Shown here piece after piece: positions 38,964 through 47,203 of a stretch of DNA of 52,628 nucleotides. Position 1 is the first letter of the stretch, and each line of letters starts with the position of its first letter. The notes below the pieces were generated by a model. That model saw only the letters and a list, made by a program, of their open reading frames with translations, was not told the origin of the DNA and did no database searches. A program made the translations under genes and the position numbers. Source of the stretch: Candidatus Mediterraneibacter quadrami (GTDB lineage Bacteria; Bacillota; Clostridia; Lachnospirales; Lachnospiraceae); assembly GCA_019120575.1 (NCBI GenBank), contig DWUU01000054.1, positions 1-52,628 of the forward strand, written 5' to 3'.

Positions 38964-39418
38964 CGGAACTTATATTTGCAGTTTTCGGAAGTTTTATTGC
39001 CATCATCGGTTTCGCGGTGCTGGTGGAGACCCCGCGGAAATATGTGCTTCAGGCCGGTATTGCCGGAGCCTGCGGAGGCGGCGTCTATTTCTTCAGTTCG
39101 CAGTGCGGCCTGGACGTGGTGACGGCCAGCTTTCTTTCAGCCCTGGCCATTTCCCTGCTGGCGCACGTTTTTGCAAGGAGCTTCAAGGCGCCGGTCACGG
39201 TGTTCCTGATCGCGGGGATCCTGCCCACAGTGCCGGGCGCCGGGATGTACCGGACGGTGTATTACATTATTGCGGACGACCGGACCCATGCGGCTTATTA
39301 TCTGGTACAGACGCTGGAGATCGCGGGCGTGATCGCACTGGCGATCTTTATCATGGACGCGCTGTTCCGGCTGCGGCCGCGTAAGGAGATCAGCAGGCCG
39401 GGGGTGAGCGGACGATGA
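38960..39418 (+). CDS. ThrE-type exporter, C-terminal half (DUF3815)
   Basis: A 152-residue membrane protein, the DUF3815 partner of the upstream gene. Five hydrophobic segments with FGSFIAIIGFAVLVETPRKYVLQAG (in outline, about 9-33), a SFLSALAISLLAHVFAR segment and the FLIAGILPTVPGAGMYRTVYY block (about 92-112), the second-half signature. The start is GTG 38960, overlapping the previous stop, with AGGGAGG 9 nt upstream. It overlaps the CobU-like gene by 4 bp, so it is transcribed into the second cobalamin block. Confidence 0.85.
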   Translation: MTELIFAVFGSFIAIIGFAVLVETPRKYVLQAGIAGACGGGVYFFSSQCGLDVVTASFLSALAISLLAHVFARSFKAPVTVFLIAGILPTVPGAGMYRTVYYIIADDRTHAAYYLVQTLEIAGVIALAIFIMDALFRLRPRKEISRPGVSGR

Positions 39419-40437
39419 TGGAACTTGTAACAGGCGGAAGCGGCAGCGGAAAATCCGCTTATGCAGAGGAACGGATCTGTACGCTCCACCGGAGACTGTG
39501 TAAAGAGAGAAATACAGAAATTCCGCTGTACTATATCGCGGATATGATCCCGTACGGGCGGGAGACGGAGCAGAAGATCGGGAAACACCGGCAGCAGCGC
39601 GCGGGAAAAGGATTTGCCACGCTGGAATGGTATGTGGACCTGCCGGGGAAGCTTTCCGGCGCTGAAACGGAAGGAGCTGCGCAGGCGGGATCAGAGGATC
39701 TTTCCGGAGCCTGTGTGCTTCTGGAATGTGTCTCCAACCTGACGGCCAATGAGATGTACGAACCCGGCGGGGCAGGCGCCTATACAGTGGAGCGCATCAC
39801 GGAAGGCGTGCGGATGCTGCGGGAGCGGTGCGCGCATCTCGTGGTTGTTACAAACGATGTGTTCCGGGAGAGCGTGCCGGATTCGGACGAGATGGCGCAG
39901 TATAAGAAGAATCTGGGCGAGGTCAACCGGGCGCTTGCACAGATGGCGGACCGGGTGACGGAAGTCGTCTTCGGCCGGACGGTCTGTGTAAAAGGTGAAG
40001 AGGCCGGAAAGACAGTCCGGGCGGCAGATGAAGGAGCGGATGCAGGAATGATTCTGATCACAGGCGGTGCATATCAGGGAAAGCTTGAATATGCAAAAGA
40101 AAAATATGAGTTTACAAAATGGACGGACGGCGCGGTATGTGAGACGGATGAGATCCATTCCTGCCGTGTGCTGGATCATTTTCATCTGTTTATCCGCCGG
40201 TGGCTGCAGACGGGAAAGACGCAGGAAGAACTGATCCGGCTGCTTTTTGAGCAGGATGAGGATCAGCAGGAGGAGAAGCGGATCATCATCTGTGACGAGA
40301 CCGGGTGCGGGCTGGTGCCGGTCGACGCCTTCGAGCGGGAATACCGGGAGACGGCCGGACGGATCTGTACGGCGCTTGCGGAACATGCGGATGAAGTATA
40401 CCGTGTGGTCTGCGGAATCGGGATGAGAATAAAATAA
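39415..40437 (+). CDS. Tandem CobU-like adenosylcobinamide kinase/guanylyltransferase protein
   Basis: A 340-residue protein made of two CobU-like halves. N-terminal half (about 1-195): P-loop TGGSGSGKSAYAE (about 6-18), YIADMIPYGRETEQKIGKHRQQR (in outline, 40-62), LLECVSNLTANEM and VVTNDVFRESVPDSDEMAQYKKNLGEVNRALA (in outline). C-terminal half (about 213-340): a second loop ILITGGAYQGKLEYAKEKY with the P-loop serine-lysine part degenerate (AYQGKLEY), then VICDETGCGLVP-like IIICDETGCGLVPVD and EYRETAGRICTALAEHADEVYRVVCG, the normal CobU C-terminus. Normal CobU is about 180 residues. The second half may be catalytic in nucleotidyl transfer or inactive. Confidence 0.75.
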   Translation: MMELVTGGSGSGKSAYAEERICTLHRRLCKERNTEIPLYYIADMIPYGRETEQKIGKHRQQRAGKGFATLEWYVDLPGKLSGAETEGAAQAGSEDLSGACVLLECVSNLTANEMYEPGGAGAYTVERITEGVRMLRERCAHLVVVTNDVFRESVPDSDEMAQYKKNLGEVNRALAQMADRVTEVVFGRTVCVKGEEAGKTVRAADEGADAGMILITGGAYQGKLEYAKEKYEFTKWTDGAVCETDEIHSCRVLDHFHLFIRRWLQTGKTQEELIRLLFEQDEDQQEEKRIIICDETGCGLVPVDAFEREYRETAGRICTALAEHADEVYRVVCGIGMRIK

Positions 40438-40452
40438 AGGAGCGTATCAGAT

Positions 40453-41088
40453 ATGCTGAATGAACTGGAACAGGTAAAGCCTGCGGACATTGAAAAGAGA
40501 AGTTTTGAGATTATTACGGAAGAACTTGGCGACAAGATCATGATGCCGGGGACGGAACCGATCGTTAAGCGATGCATCCACACAAGCGCGGATTTTGACT
40601 ATGCGGACAATCTGGTCTTTTCCGGCCAGGCGGTGGCGAAAGCGCTGGCGGCGATCCGCGGCGGCGCGTTCATCGTGACGGACACCCAGATGGCAAAAGC
40701 CGGGATCAACAAGAAACGGCTGGCGCAGTACGGCGGAGAAGTACTCTGCTTCATGTCTGACGAGGATGTGGCGCGGACAGCAAAGGAGAACGGAACAACG
40801 CGGGCGGCGGCCTGCATGGATAAGGCGGCGGATCTGTACGGAGACCGGAAGCTGATCTTTGCAGTCGGAAATGCGCCGACAGCGCTGGTACGGCTCTATG
40901 AACTGATCCGGGAGGGGAAGATCCGTCCGGAGCTCATCATCGCCGTGCCGGTGGGATTTGTCAACGTGGTCCAGTCGAAGGAGCTGATTCTGACGCTTCA
41001 GGATATCCCGCATATCGTGGCCAGGGGAAGAAAAGGCGGCAGCAATATCGCGGCATGCATCTGCAATGCGCTTCTGTACATGCTGTGA
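40453..41088 (+). CDS. cbiC: Precorrin-8X / cobalt-precorrin-8 methylmutase
   Basis: A 211-residue CbiC/CobH enzyme that moves the methyl group from C-11 to C-12 to make (cobalt-)cobyrinate. Family marks: PADIEKRSFEIITEELG (about 10-26), VKRCIHTSADFDYADNLVFS (about 38-57) with the catalytic His in RCIHT, the AALA/GGAFIVTDTQMAKAGI region (about 71-86), GNAPTALVRLYELI (about 141-154) and PVGFVNVVQSKELI (about 167-180). The ribosome site AAAGGAG precedes ATG 40453. Confidence 0.94.
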   Translation: MLNELEQVKPADIEKRSFEIITEELGDKIMMPGTEPIVKRCIHTSADFDYADNLVFSGQAVAKALAAIRGGAFIVTDTQMAKAGINKKRLAQYGGEVLCFMSDEDVARTAKENGTTRAAACMDKAADLYGDRKLIFAVGNAPTALVRLYELIREGKIRPELIIAVPVGFVNVVQSKELILTLQDIPHIVARGRKGGSNIAACICNALLYML

Positions 41089-41133
41089 CCGCCGGACGGT
41101 TCATTATTATGGATGTGGAAAGGGTGACATGAA

Positions 41134-41607
41134 ATGGAGAAAACATATTTTCCGATGTTCATCGATCTGACCGGGAAGAAGATCCTGGTCGCGGGCGGCG
41201 GCGCCATCGCCCTGCGGCGCGTGCGGACGCTGCTCCGATTCGGGGCGGATATCCAGGTGACCGCGCCGGAATTGTGTGAAGAGATGGAACGCCTTGAAAA
41301 AGAGAAAAAGATCACGGCAAAGCACAGGGAATATCGAAGCGGTGACATAGACGGGATGCAGATCGTGCTGGCTGCGACGGATGACCGGGCGGTGAACCGC
41401 AGGATCCGGGAGGACTGTCAGAGCGCCGGGATCATGGTCAACGTGGCGGATGACAGAAGCCTCTGCGACTTCTATTTCCCGTCTGTGGTTATGACAGAAG
41501 ACGCAGTGATCGGGATCAGCGGAGACGGCAGCGACCACGCAGGGGTAAAAGAGGCGCGCAGGCGGATCGAGAAAGCCTGCAAAGCGGAGAAAGATTCACT
41601 TTACTGA
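41134..41607 (+). CDS. Precorrin-2 dehydrogenase / sirohydrochlorin ferrochelatase-type protein
   Basis: A 157-residue stand-alone version of the CysG N-terminal domain (Met8/SirC group), which oxidises precorrin-2 to sirohydrochlorin with NAD. FPMFIDLTGKKILVAGGGAIALRRV (about 6-30) is the Rossmann opening, followed by VLAATDDRAVNRRIREDC (about 78-95), VADDRSLCDFYFPSVV (about 103-118) and ISGDGSDHAGVKEARRRIE (about 129-147). The dimerisation domain of full-length CysG is absent. It follows cbiC by 45 bp and uses precorrin-2 from the CobA-HemD fusion. Confidence 0.88.
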   Translation: MEKTYFPMFIDLTGKKILVAGGGAIALRRVRTLLRFGADIQVTAPELCEEMERLEKEKKITAKHREYRSGDIDGMQIVLAATDDRAVNRRIREDCQSAGIMVNVADDRSLCDFYFPSVVMTEDAVIGISGDGSDHAGVKEARRRIEKACKAEKDSLY

Positions 41608-43322: not shown

Positions 43323-43351
43323 TTGACATTCCAGTAATAACGTGATAAAGT
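43323..43351 (+). promoter_or_regulatory. Promoter of the T-box operon
   Basis: -35 TTGACA (43323-43328), 17-bp spacer, -10 TAAAGT (43346-43351). It is divergent from the rubredoxin promoter, and transcription would start just before the T-box leader. Confidence 0.6.
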
Positions 43352-43355
43352 GTAC

Positions 43356-43640
43356 CAAAACTATTGAGGAAGAGCAAGTAGCTTCACTGGACGCTTCACA
43401 GAGAGCCGCAGGCGGTGGGATTGCGGTAAGACGGACTTGGGGTGAATGGGCTTCTGAGGGCGAGTTGAAATGTGAAGTAGGCGAGCCGGAGAACATACTC
43501 CGTTACCAAAGAAAGCATATGTCAGTATGCATGAGTGGATGCGGATCACCGCATCAAGCCGGGTGGCACCGCAGGAGTTATTTTGATCTACAGCTCTTGT
43601 CCCTGCAGAATTATTGTATGGGACGAGGGCTTTTTATTTT
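43356..43640 (+). ncRNA. T-box riboswitch leader
   Basis: A full T-box leader between the promoter and the HcxA-like gene. Visible parts, in order: stem I specifier-loop strand AGTA (43377-43380), AGAGAGCC and a CCGCA/TGCGG apical stem with GGTG loop (43400-43424), specifier region near 43455-43470, the AGTAGGC...CCGTTA block (43476-43505), the T-box motif GGTGGCACCGC (43562-43572) that pairs with the tRNA acceptor end, and a terminator whose arms are GCTCTTGTCCC (43593-43603) and GGGACGAGGGC (43620-43630) followed by Ts. The specifier codon is uncertain: GGC (Gly) at 43459-43461 or TTG (Leu) at 43465-43467. Uncharged tRNA binding should let the operon be expressed. Confidence 0.88.
43593..43640 (+). 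terminator. T-box regulatory terminator
   Basis: Arms at 43593-43603 and 43620-43630 with GU pairs, then TTTTTATTTT. The 5' side competes with the antiterminator formed around the T-box motif at 43562-43572. Confidence 0.8.
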
Positions 43641-43673
43641 GTCCGGATCCCGGAATGGAAAGGAGAAACAGCT

Positions 43674-44786
43674 ATGCAACTTGAAAATTATGAAGTACAT
43701 CTTCCCAACTATTCGATCGGAGATCACATTTACGACAAGATCGGACCGGTGTGTGGATCGTACGGAAAGAAGGTCCTCGTGATCGGCGGGAAAAAGGCGC
43801 TTGATGCCGCTTATGATAAGATCCGGTTCTATGTGGATCAGACGGATCTTGAGATCATCGGGAAAGAGTACTACGGCGAAAACTGTACCTATGCCACGGT
43901 GGAAAAACTTCGCAGTATGCCGATCTATCAGGAGGCGGATATGGTGTTCGGCGTGGGTGGCGGAAAGGCGCTTGATACAGTAAAATGTCTGTGCATCACG
44001 GATGACAAGCCGGTCTTTGCTTTCCCGACGATCGCATCCAACTGCTCAGCCTGCACGTCCGTTTCCATCATGTACAATGAAGACGGAACGTTTCTGAAAC
44101 CGCATTTTTTCATCAGACCGGTGATGCATGCCTTTATTGATACGGAGATCATCGCCAAAGCGCCGGTCCGGTATATGTGGGCCGGAATAGGAGATACATA
44201 TGCGAAGTACTATGAAGCAACGATCTCATCAAGAGAGGAGCGGCTGGAACATTTTACTGCGCTTGGCGCCCTGGTGAGCCGGATGTGCCGGGATCCGCTG
44301 CTGGAATACGGGCCGAAAGCACTGGACGACCACCGAAAAGGTCTCTGCACCTATGATGTGGAGCAGGTCGTTCTTGCCATCGTTGTAACAACAGGGATCG
44401 CATCCATCTTCCTTACGAAAGATTATACGCCGGATTATAACAGCGGACTGGCGCATGCGGTCTTCTATGCGATGACGGCATATCCGGTCATTGAGGAGCG
44501 GCACCTTCACGGAGAAGTGGTGGGATTCGGCGTCCTGCTGGCGCTTCTGGTTGACGGGCAGGATGAAGAATTTGAACAGATCTACCGGCTGAACCGCGCG
44601 CTGGGGCTTCCGGTTTCGCTGGAACAGATTGAGATCACGGATGAACAGTGGGAAGAATGCAGGAAGCGTATCCCGGATATGTCGGATGTAGCGCATTATC
44701 CATACAGAGTAACAGAAGAGATGCTGGCTGACGCCATGGACAGACTGAAAGAAAGGGTGAGAAAAGATGCAGATGAAGAAGAATAG
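43674..44786 (+). CDS. Iron-type dehydrogenase, HcxA(YbdH)-like hydroxycarboxylate dehydrogenase
   Basis: A 370-residue member of the GldA/Fe-ADH family. The closest pattern I recall is E. coli HcxA (YbdH), an NAD(P)H-dependent reductase of 2-oxo acids such as 2-oxoglutarate and 2-oxobutanoate: GVGGGKALDTVKCL (about 86-99), FPTIASNCSACTSVSIMYNE (about 113-132), a YMWAGIGDTYAKYYEA block (about 162-177), AHAVFYAM and RHLHGEVVGFG. The likely metal ligands are D in GIGD, H in LAHAV and H in HLHGE. The start is ATG 43674, with AAAGGAG upstream. It is the first gene behind the T-box, so it responds to amino-acid starvation; substrate is inferred. Confidence 0.8.
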   Translation: MQLENYEVHLPNYSIGDHIYDKIGPVCGSYGKKVLVIGGKKALDAAYDKIRFYVDQTDLEIIGKEYYGENCTYATVEKLRSMPIYQEADMVFGVGGGKALDTVKCLCITDDKPVFAFPTIASNCSACTSVSIMYNEDGTFLKPHFFIRPVMHAFIDTEIIAKAPVRYMWAGIGDTYAKYYEATISSREERLEHFTALGALVSRMCRDPLLEYGPKALDDHRKGLCTYDVEQVVLAIVVTTGIASIFLTKDYTPDYNSGLAHAVFYAMTAYPVIEERHLHGEVVGFGVLLALLVDGQDEEFEQIYRLNRALGLPVSLEQIEITDEQWEECRKRIPDMSDVAHYPYRVTEEMLADAMDRLKERVRKDADEEE

Positions 44787-45948
44787 GAATACAGCGATCA
44801 TTCTGGGGGTGTCTTTTGTATGGTTCACGACGCATTTTGGCGGCGGGTTTGCCTCCGGAGCCCAGATCTACAGTTATTTCGTAAGATATGGGGCCGCATG
44901 TCTGATCATGCCGGTCCTGGCGATGCTGTACAATGGAGTATTTTTTGCATATAGCCTCCGTTTTGCAAGAAAGCACGAAGTATATGATTACCGTTCTTAT
45001 AACAACGCATTTTACGGAAGATTTGCGCCGGTATTTTCCAACCTGTTCGAAGTCCTGTATATCTGTGTGATGTGCGTGGCGCCGGCAGTCGCCTTTGCTA
45101 CAGGAGGCGCTACGCTGAGCACGCTGACCGGACTGCCGTATCTGCTCTGTACGTTCCTGATCGGCGTGTTCATATTCGTTGTAGCTATATTCGGGACGGA
45201 TCTGGTAAGGAAAGTTGCTTCGATCCTGTCTGTCTGCATTATCGCCGGACTGCTGATCGTTTATATCCCCAATATTGCCGCGGGAATGGGAAATATCACA
45301 GAAGCGGCGGAACAGATGACGGCAGCGGAGCTTCCGGTTGGCAGCGCTTTGTATTCTGCATTTCTGTACGGGACATTCCAACTGTCGAACATTGCCGTAT
45401 TTGTCCAGCATGCGAGATCTTTTGAGAAGCCGGCGGATGCCGTAAAGAGCATGGGCGCGGGAGTGGTCGTGAACGCGCTGATGATGGTGATGGTCGTGCT
45501 GGGTCTGATGACAGTATATACGGATCCGGGGATGGCGGACGCCAGCGTGCCGACACTTCTGATGGTCCGGAAAGGCGTGGGCGCATCTTTTATGACGCCT
45601 CTGATCTCACTGCTTATCATCCTCGGCGCAGTGTCTACCGCGGTAAATATGGTCGCAGCCATGGTAACGCGGATCTGCGGTGGGAAAACAGAAGCAAAGA
45701 CAAAGAAGCTGAAGATCGGCAAGAAAGAGGCCCTTGCTGCGCTTATATGCTGTATCGTAGATTTTGGCATCGCACAGTTCGGACTCCTGACCCTTATACA
45801 GAAGGCGTACAGCCTGATTGCATATCTGGCGGTCCCGGTGATCCTGATCCCGTATATTGTGCATATGATCGTGACCAGGTTCGATACAAAACCTGCAAAA
45901 GTTCTGTCACGTTTGAATGAAGAAAGAGGATTGATTAAATTATCCTGA
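44767..45948 (+). CDS. YkvI-type membrane transporter
   Basis: A 393-residue, about 10-11-TM protein similar to B. subtilis YkvI, a member of the LeuT-fold transporter superfamily by general features. The first helix carries the conserved FTTHFGGGFASGAQIYSYF (about 18-36), comparable to the unwound substrate-binding TM1 of that fold. Later TMs include about 75-100, 108-130, 140-165, 190-215, 225-250, 265-290, 320-345 and 350-375. It overlaps the dehydrogenase by 20 bp and is under the same T-box. The substrate might be the amino acid or its hydroxy/oxo acid; this is inference. Confidence 0.8.
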   Translation: MQMKKNRNTAIILGVSFVWFTTHFGGGFASGAQIYSYFVRYGAACLIMPVLAMLYNGVFFAYSLRFARKHEVYDYRSYNNAFYGRFAPVFSNLFEVLYICVMCVAPAVAFATGGATLSTLTGLPYLLCTFLIGVFIFVVAIFGTDLVRKVASILSVCIIAGLLIVYIPNIAAGMGNITEAAEQMTAAELPVGSALYSAFLYGTFQLSNIAVFVQHARSFEKPADAVKSMGAGVVVNALMMVMVVLGLMTVYTDPGMADASVPTLLMVRKGVGASFMTPLISLLIILGAVSTAVNMVAAMVTRICGGKTEAKTKKLKIGKKEALAALICCIVDFGIAQFGLLTLIQKAYSLIAYLAVPVILIPYIVHMIVTRFDTKPAKVLSRLNEERGLIKLS

Positions 45949-46013
45949 TTTGCTATGATGTATCTCGGTCAGTAAGTCCCCTGATACATACATAGCAAAG
46001 AGAGGAAAGAAAA

Positions 46014-47189
46014 ATGGGCTCACTGCTTATTGCTGTTATCTATCTTGCGTTTATAAGCCTCGGACTGCCGGATTCCCTGCTTGGTTCCGGATGGCCGACC
46101 ATGCAGACTGCATTTCAGGTCCCGTCGTCTTACGCTGGATATGTTTCTATGGTGATTTCGTGCATGACAATCATTTCCGCGCTGATGAGTCCGAGACTGA
46201 TCCGGAGTGTCCATACGAAATGGATCGTGGTCGTATCGACAGGATTAACGATCATCGGGCTGTTTGGATTTTCTTTTTCAGGACAGTACTGGATGCTGTT
46301 CCTGTTTGCCGTTCCCTATGGCCTGGGAGCCGGTTCGATCGACGCCTCGCTTAACCATTATGTCGCAGAGAATTATTCATCTTCCGTGATGAATTTCCTG
46401 CACTGCTTTTACGGACTGGGCGCAGTCATCAGCCCCAATATTATGGCGCTGGCGCTGAAATATGCGCACTGGAATGAAGGATACCGCTGGACGGCGTATG
46501 TACAGATCGGAATCCTTGCGGTCTGCATCCTGTCCCTGCCGCTCTGGGAAAATGCAAAAAAAGAAGAGAAGCTGGCGGCAGAGAAGCTTGCAGGGATCAG
46601 CGAGTCAATAAAGGTGCCCGGTGTGGTCCTGACCCTGATCGCATTTTTTGCCTACTGTGCGGGAGAGGCTACCGCTTTTCTGTGGACGTCCAGTTATTTT
46701 GCCGGAACAAAATCAGGGATGAGCGAAGGGCTCATCGCCGCGTTCGGTTCGCTGATCTTCGGCGGGCTGATGCTGGGGCGGCTGATTTCCGGTTTTGTCT
46801 CCAACCGGCTTGGCGACCGGATGCTGATCCGTATCGGGATCGCGGTTGAATTCGTGGGGATCATACTTATTGCGCTGCCGTTTCAGGGCTACATAGCTGC
46901 AGCTGTCGGATTCCTGATCACGGGAACAGGCATGGGGCCGGTTTATCCGGCGATCCAGCATATGGCTCCGGCGAATTTCGGAAGAAAATACAGCGCGGCC
47001 GTGATCGGTCTTCAGATGGCTTTTGCATATGTGGGCACTATGTTCATGCCGATGATATTCGGAAAACTGCAGGAGGCGGTCGGTATATGGATCATGCCGC
47101 TGTATCTGGCTGTATTTGCTGTAATCAATATCTCCATGCTGGAAATCGCATATCGCAGGATAAAAAAAGAGGGGCGGATCCATGAGTGA
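46014..47189 (+). CDS. MFS transporter
   Basis: A 391-residue major facilitator with twelve hydrophobic helices and the sugar/fucose-permease-like opening LIAVIYLAFISLGLPDSLLGSGWP (in outline, about 4-27), the GLGAGSIDASLNHYVAENY loop (about 103-121) and HCFYGLGAVISP (about 130-141). The second half has SGFVSNRLGDRMLIRIGI, a typical inter-helix loop. It starts 65 bp after the YkvI gene without an obvious promoter, so it may be read from the T-box promoter. A second transporter in this operon suggests exchange of substrate and product. Confidence 0.85.
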   Translation: MGSLLIAVIYLAFISLGLPDSLLGSGWPTMQTAFQVPSSYAGYVSMVISCMTIISALMSPRLIRSVHTKWIVVVSTGLTIIGLFGFSFSGQYWMLFLFAVPYGLGAGSIDASLNHYVAENYSSSVMNFLHCFYGLGAVISPNIMALALKYAHWNEGYRWTAYVQIGILAVCILSLPLWENAKKEEKLAAEKLAGISESIKVPGVVLTLIAFFAYCAGEATAFLWTSSYFAGTKSGMSEGLIAAFGSLIFGGLMLGRLISGFVSNRLGDRMLIRIGIAVEFVGIILIALPFQGYIAAAVGFLITGTGMGPVYPAIQHMAPANFGRKYSAAVIGLQMAFAYVGTMFMPMIFGKLQEAVGIWIMPLYLAVFAVINISMLEIAYRRIKKEGRIHE

Positions 47190-47203
47190 TCCGCCTCTTT
47201 TTT
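47166..47203. terminator. Terminator of the T-box operon
   Basis: AAAGAGGGGCGGATC (47166-47180) pairs with GATCCGCCTCTTTTTT (47188-47203); the loop contains the end of the MFS gene. T-runs on both strands let it also serve the convergent kinase-like gene. Confidence 0.85.

Follow-up and report, generated by a model that had tools for sequence, protein, structure and literature searches.

A tryptophan-type T-box leader precedes an iron-type dehydrogenase and an APC-fold transporter in Candidatus Mediterraneibacter quadrami: a candidate tryptophan salvage operon

The 52,628 nucleotides of contig DWUU01000054.1 from Candidatus Mediterraneibacter quadrami (Lachnospiraceae; assembly GCA_019120575.1), referred to here as the window, contain a T-box leader followed by the gene of an iron-type alcohol dehydrogenase superfamily protein (FeADH) and the overlapping gene of a membrane transporter with an APC/LeuT-type fold. 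Control of these two genes by a tryptophan T-box is strongly supported by the sequence comparisons presented below. The unit is best interpreted as a tryptophan-responsive salvage operon, in which FeADH would oxidise a hydroxy acid with the tryptophan skeleton for the resynthesis of tryptophan under starvation, and we give this interpretation a probability of roughly 0.55. A preliminary description of the locus had proposed the scavenging of an amino-acid skeleton; this remains the best reading, and the UGG specifier now identifies the amino acid as tryptophan. The host assembly comprises 2.19 Mb in 61 contigs and is 94% complete. The nearest named relatives of FeADH, 98% identical, come from Candidatus Mediterraneibacter excrementavium and guildfordensis, which we take to be Lachnospiraceae of the chicken gut.

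The leader spans positions 43355..43607 of the + strand, from Stem I to the antiterminator, and matches the Rfam T-box model RF00230 end to end (model positions 1-219 of 219, 86.3 bits, E 1.9e-19 in a search of 461 bases). The score lies below the curated Rfam gathering score of 93, and a whole-window scan at gathering scores therefore lists no T-box. The host genome has 12 T-boxes, 5 of which pass the gathering score. Because 6 of the 11 T-boxes other than the window leader also fall below it, including the 5 in front of the synthetase genes valS, tyrS, pheS, ileS and metG, the low score is not a sign of decay. The leader carries the AGTA, AGAGAG and GGTGGCACCGC motifs, and its terminator, formed by AGCTCTTGTCCC and GGGACGAGGGCT and followed by a T-run, is located at 43592..43640 (+ strand). 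Terminator and antiterminator helices that exclude each other can both be drawn, as pairing potential, in 27 related leaders. In the alignment of these leaders, 98.5% of the cells of the terminator helix are paired; seven cells changed on both sides, a number that none of 500 shuffles reaches, and three pairs show two-sided change, a number reached by 30 of 500 shuffles. The antiterminator is paired in 100% of the cells and, being nearly invariant, is silent on covariation. The earlier claim of a complete T-box leader is thus borne out, and the covariance-model check suggested with it scores a T-box and fixes the specifier.

The specifier codon UGG (Trp) is found at 43447..43449 (+ strand). 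It was read from covariance alignments as the triplet ending one model column before the lower Stem I helix, a rule that gives the right amino acid for all eight synthetase T-boxes of the host genome: leuS CUC, proS CCG, thrS ACC, valS GUA, tyrS UAC, pheS UUU, ileS AUC and metG AUG. Two inserted bases make the pheS reading ambiguous between UUU, from the model columns, and UUC, one base further along, but Phe is encoded either way. The leaders of ilvB (GUA), of a CstA-like gene and of a TrpB-like gene stand outside this calibration, in which the synthetase and ilvB names were read by eye from translations. The flank of the specifier resembles that of the metG leader, with AUG-G-CUUCUGAG in metG and UGG-G-CUUCUGAG in the window. 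The antiterminator bulge UGGC at 43564..43567 (+ strand) is complementary to the end of a tRNA-Trp with discriminator G. The host tRNA-Trp (L170) has the anticodon CCA and discriminator G, so that specifier and bulge fit both contacts of this tRNA. According to the available text of the TBDB article (PMC7778990), that collection gives priority to bases 2-4 counted from the loop end, and 46% of its Trp T-boxes combine U with a G discriminator. The leader appears, on this sequence evidence, to be a tryptophan-responsive T-box. Another T-box of the genome (L004 1501-1763, - strand, 101.9 bits), with an ambiguous specifier that is perhaps AUC, stands before the CstA-like gene, named by eye as a transporter gene.

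The association of the T-box with the dehydrogenase is conserved. Of 444 relatives confirmed by a FeADH profile search that took one genome per species, the best 80, 63-98% identical to the query, were used in a survey that covers FeADH loci, not transporter loci lacking FeADH; some of the contigs end early, which affects neighbour counts. A sequence-profile search places a T-box before the operon in 62 of the 80 loci, and a pattern scan without a codon requirement finds one upstream in 58; these 58 read UGG when the scan is combined with the later codon alignment, the region given by the scan for L066 being misplaced. The profile hidden Markov model was trained on 59 leaders selected by a pattern that contained AATGG plus a G or A as the next base. 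Every readable T-box specifies UGG, and these T-boxes belong to 64 distinct relatives (L044 and L045 included). Automatic codon matching missed 5 of 67 rows, of which L118, L119, L122 and L044 read TGG by eye only and L067, a fragment without Stem I, was dropped; L037 duplicates L086 and L040 duplicates L129. The bulge is UGGC in 54 of 64 rows and UGGT in 10 of 64 (two rows being duplicates). Wherever present, the T-box precedes the first gene of the unit, be it FeADH, the APC-fold gene or trpX, and the link is kept down to about 50% FeADH identity. The link between leader and genes, for which the preliminary description had proposed a genome search, is accordingly conserved. Among the 18 loci counted as having no T-box, the contigs of three (L056, L068 and L126) end at most 311 bases upstream, and L067 retains a remnant only. 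In a quick FeADH tree with flagged long branches, which leaves out the duplicate rows L086, L129, L113 and L126, the T-box state changes at least 8 times; this count excludes L056, L068, L126, L039 and L041.

FeADH (43674..44786, + strand, 370 aa) starts at an ATG picked by alignment, the mechanical open reading frame beginning earlier. It scores 63.9 bits against PF00465 and 48.7 bits against PF13685, above the gathering scores of 31.3 and 28, respectively. The preliminary description had called it an HcxA/YbdH-like dehydrogenase. The superfamily and the position behind a T-box hold. Identity to E. coli HcxA is 28%, and the score against the HcxA model NF007880 is 152.8 bits, far below the cut-off of 429 (E. 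coli HcxA itself scores 752.7), which amounts to resemblance rather than membership. Against the GldA model NF047954 it scores 159.4 bits, with a cut-off of 700, and it is 27% identical to E. coli GldA, although GldA provides the nearest solved structures by sequence. HcxA and glycerol dehydrogenase were both rejected as family names, since both cut-offs are missed. FeADH belongs to the same family as GldA and shares with both GldA and HcxA the invariant residues D174, H261 and H279, which we take from GldA structures to be metal binders. The active-site motif is TDAP in GldA, NCSA in FeADH and TCAA in HcxA, so that FeADH and HcxA both lack the GldA aspartate, the residue that presumably contacts glycerol. 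In E. coli, hcxA adjoins the divergent aminotransferase gene ybdL; the window gene differs in its T-box control and its transporter partners. FeADH paralogues that are 40-43% identical lie beside a class-I aminotransferase gene in L047, L048 and L050, and in L047 and L048 the paralogue is placed between this gene and that of a Gate-domain membrane protein. In L049 (242-2667), a more distant paralogue (39-41% identical) is preceded by a distant homologue (27%) of the window transporter, and no T-box was found there. The pairing of FeADH and transporter may, judging from this locus, be older than the T-box.

The transporter gene (44767..45948, + strand, 393 aa) overlaps that of FeADH by 20 bases. 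The protein has no family match in Pfam or NCBIfam, and no solved structure is credibly similar to it in sequence. Its AlphaFold2 model has a predicted local distance difference test (pLDDT) score of 88.4, and the top Foldseek match of the model is ApcT (E 7.1e-6), which suggests a fold of the APC/LeuT type. Of the earlier label, a YkvI transporter overlapping by 20 bp, the overlap and a transporter fold stand, whereas YkvI is a name that the family searches do not return. In the 80 loci, an APC-fold homologue accompanies FeADH in 71, lying downstream of it in 53 and ahead of it in the other 18; 4 loci have trpXYZ as the partner, and 5 have neither. One of these five, L126, ends 254 bases upstream, and two others, L071 and L074, have a T-box and then FeADH with neither transporter found. 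In four further genomes of the family (L042-L045), trpXYZ follows FeADH, a Trp T-box being present in two of the four, and the best NCBIfam match of the binding protein in L042, L044 and L045 is TrpX, at 238-276 bits and below the cut-off of 390. On the FeADH tree, the unit switches at least 3 times between its three arrangements, namely the APC-fold gene behind FeADH, the APC-fold gene ahead of it, and trpXYZ; rows with other partners are excluded from the change counts. Since the partner changes while FeADH stays, FeADH is the stable member of the unit and the transporter is exchangeable. The operon also stands closer to classic amino-acid systems than had been claimed: trpXYZ, a known Trp T-box target in the available text of PMC9382623, accompanies T-box and FeADH in some relatives. 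No recurrent third gene was found behind the operon, as no cluster except that of the transporter exceeds 8 open reading frames; the ten genes scanned there encode NlpC/P60, YqeY, tRNA nucleotidyltransferase, APH, DUF5688, sodium:alanine symporter, FeoB, nucleoside phosphorylase, HAD and amidase proteins. In L040 (8031-8849), a HAD hydrolase gene follows the operon; the available text of PMC8556157 places an aminotransferase and a HAD gene alongside the Bifidobacterium aldh, a likeness that may be due to chance.

A T-box that switches genes on when tryptophan is short suggests that FeADH should help to make or to obtain tryptophan. In the salvage operon as we envisage it, uncharged tRNA-Trp would pair with the leader, its CCA anticodon at the UGG specifier and its discriminator G at the UGGC bulge, the antiterminator would form, and FeADH and the APC-fold transporter would be made. 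The transporter would then import a compound with the tryptophan skeleton, namely tryptophan, indole-3-lactate or indolepyruvate. FeADH, by family a metal- and NAD(P)-dependent enzyme, would oxidise indole-3-lactate to indole-3-pyruvate, which an aminotransferase of the cell would turn into tryptophan; such a hydroxy-acid route can operate with just a common aminotransferase besides FeADH. In its most specific form, the proposal makes FeADH an indole-3-lactate dehydrogenase of a new clade that runs in the oxidising direction. Lachnospiraceae of the gut and related bacteria, some of which seem to lack a tryptophan pathway, would induce it through the Trp T-box to rebuild tryptophan from the indole-3-lactate of neighbours (bifidobacteria and lactobacilli, for example), taken up via the APC-fold transporter or trpXYZ. 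We hold this form tentatively, at somewhat less than even odds.

The tryptophan metabolism of the carriers was surveyed through trpA, trpC and trpD only, in assemblies that may be incomplete. None of the three genes exceeds its cut-off in the window genome or in its near relatives L051 and L052. Among 22 FeADH genomes tested, trpC is over the cut-off in 16 and missing in the window genome, L051, L052 and three others; these six also lack trpA, as well as trpD over the cut-off (one has a piece of 73 residues). Both trpA and trpD are present in three FeADH carriers tested alongside. The window genome contains a second Trp T-box (UGG, UGGC; L012 1501-1797, - strand) before the TrpB-like gene, which scores 682 bits with a cut-off of 366 and whose product could salvage indole. 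TrpX was not found in the window genome, which has 13 matches to class-I/II aminotransferases, some of them partial.

Several observations weigh against parts of this reading. As regards the leader, single-sequence folding yields a minimum-energy structure different from a T-box (z -1.75; 4 of 100 shuffles are equally stable), and the leader terminator is absent from a terminator scan list whose rule admits loops of 3-8 only. A decayed or misread T-box would agree with this folding and with the score below the Rfam cut-off; we find it barely credible, since conservation extends to specifier, bulge, antiterminator and terminator alike, and scores below the cut-off also occur in front of synthetase genes of the same genome. 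As regards the link, no T-box was found at 14 of the 80 loci (L075, L096, L098, L108-L115, L121, L123 and L125), all of which have FeADH together with an APC-fold gene, and 3.4 kb or more of upstream sequence. An Rfam search of six of these (L075, L096, L098, L110, L111 and L113) for another leader class returned only a tRNA. In favour of a tie to tryptophan, a tRNA-Trp gene lies 0.3 to 3.3 kb upstream at three of the loci without a T-box (L110 3413-3484, L114 238-309 and L125 294-365); these are 3 of 4 tRNA genes in 19 loci scanned, and L110 and L114 are sisters in the tree and hence not independent. Separately, L096, L110, L114 and L123 show by eye a short upstream leader with a hairpin and a T-run, possibly another attenuator. 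As regards the carriers, apparent auxotrophs show no enrichment of FeADH, trpC being missing in 3 of 11 sampled genomes with FeADH at E <=2.6e-115 as against 48 of 200 in a sample of the family. Furthermore, a single aminotransferase query, which other kinds would escape, detected no such gene close to FeADH in any of the 80 loci.

The functions of the two proteins are likewise open to other explanations. Metal-ion transporters also rank high among the Foldseek matches of the transporter, the fold of which therefore does not reveal its substrate. Indole-3-lactate is the most likely substrate of FeADH by inference, and the best NCBIfam subfamily of the enzyme is glycerol dehydrogenase (NF006941, 202.3 bits, below the cut-off of 336). 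If the transporter carried tryptophan itself, as it may, the presence of FeADH would lack an explanation; under such plain uptake, FeADH would be a passenger polyol or aldehyde dehydrogenase with no substrate related to tryptophan. This main rival, to which the glycerol dehydrogenase match and the partnership of FeADH with transporters, of the APC-fold type or trpXYZ, lend weight, is nonetheless unlikely, as FeADH is retained while the transporters are swapped, two loci have T-box and FeADH with neither transporter found, and the GldA-type TDAP motif is replaced. Alternatively, FeADH could act on another compound of a tryptophan or aromatic route, such as acids of the phenyl-lactate type or an indole aldehyde or alcohol, with tryptophan merely the regulatory signal. 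HcxA-type enzymes are known as broad 2-oxo acid reductases. The alpha subunit of indolepyruvate oxidoreductase is present in the window genome and exceeds its cut-off in 6 of the 9 genomes examined for it, a sign that these cells may carry out arylpyruvate chemistry; every specifier read is UGG, however, and none encodes Phe or Tyr, which makes this explanation distinctly improbable. The same enzyme could finally run in the opposite direction and reduce indolepyruvate derived from tryptophan to indole-3-lactate for export or redox balance, as gut Bifidobacterium do with an aromatic lactate dehydrogenase according to the available text of PMC8556157. We regard this as highly improbable, because a T-box induces at amino-acid shortage, when spending tryptophan makes little sense.

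Comparison of the proposed salvage operon with known systems separates what is established from what appears to be new. The trpXYZ operon of Streptococcus suis, as far as described in the available text of PMC9382623, has a Trp T-box like that of the window, with a UGG specifier, a UGGC bulge and control by a terminator; mutation showed that the specifier and the UGGC of the T-box sequence are needed for the response to low tryptophan. That T-box drives an ABC transporter, whereas the window T-box precedes a dehydrogenase and an APC-fold transporter; trpXYZ is at the same time the partner of FeADH in some relatives. The Bifidobacterium Aldh, a type 4 lactate dehydrogenase of the lactate dehydrogenase family, works on the pair indolepyruvate and indole-3-lactate proposed for FeADH, a likeness of described function; it makes the lactate, and the available text of PMC8556157 mentions no T-box. 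The T-box collections TBDB (PMC7778990) and Wels et al. (PMC2494555) list, in their available texts, specifiers and downstream genes, Trp T-boxes included. The word "dehydrogenase" is absent from the available main texts of both, the TBDB database itself and the supplementary files not having been searched, and an iron-type alcohol dehydrogenase under a Trp T-box is not mentioned in the available texts of PMC2494555, PMC3766115, PMC7778990 and PMC11477304. Literature searches of titles and abstract openings, often for part of the matches, returned no description of such an enzyme as a conserved Trp T-box target, and T-boxes of this kind may well stand unremarked in TBDB. T-boxes, Trp T-boxes and the control of trpXYZ are thus already known, and the seemingly new element is an iron-type dehydrogenase as a conserved Trp T-box target.

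Gut bifidobacteria (PMC8556157) and lactobacilli (PMC10949743) convert tryptophan to indole-3-lactate, which acts on host receptors (PMC8556157, PMC10949743) and from which mouse gut communities supplied with it form other indoles (PMC10949743), as stated in the available portions of these articles. If the proposed salvage is true, part of the indole-3-lactate pool would be a shared tryptophan currency among gut bacteria, tryptophan would pass between them as a metabolite also read by the host, and the T-box would name the gene to test. An unnamed clade of iron-type dehydrogenases would thereby gain a substrate and a physiological role, and the transporter type without a family match would gain a role as well.

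The third gene of the window cluster, which encodes an MFS (major facilitator superfamily) transporter of 391 aa (46014..47189, + strand; PF07690, 125.1 bits), is a lineage-specific neighbour found in 2 of the 80 loci only, L051 and L052. It was consequently rejected as a part of the conserved unit, and the two transporters formerly ascribed to the operon reduce to one and a local addition. The gap between the two transporter genes contains a near-palindrome with a one-base bulge, noted by eye (TTTGCTATG-ATGTATC and GATACATACATAGCAAA, 45949..45999), which L051 and L052 share with few differences and which is unlisted by a repeat search that allows no gaps. It is a possible operator, and a promoter-like site lies beside it (45931-45959); the MFS gene may, from this arrangement of sequence elements, be a separately regulated unit. 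A further promoter-like site precedes the T-box leader (TTGACA-17-TAAAGT with TG before the second hexamer; 43323..43351, + strand; 10 of 12 matches). Promoter-like sites are at chance level, with 5 found and 4.9 expected in shuffles, and both are weak indications. The terminator described earlier as closing the cluster is present at 47173..47203, its stem (47173-47195) being listed for the - strand with a T-run that also follows on the + strand. Upstream of the leader, the genes at 39415-41607 of the window are by eye of the cobalamin/sirohaem type, namely cobU-like, precorrin isomerase-like and cysG-like.

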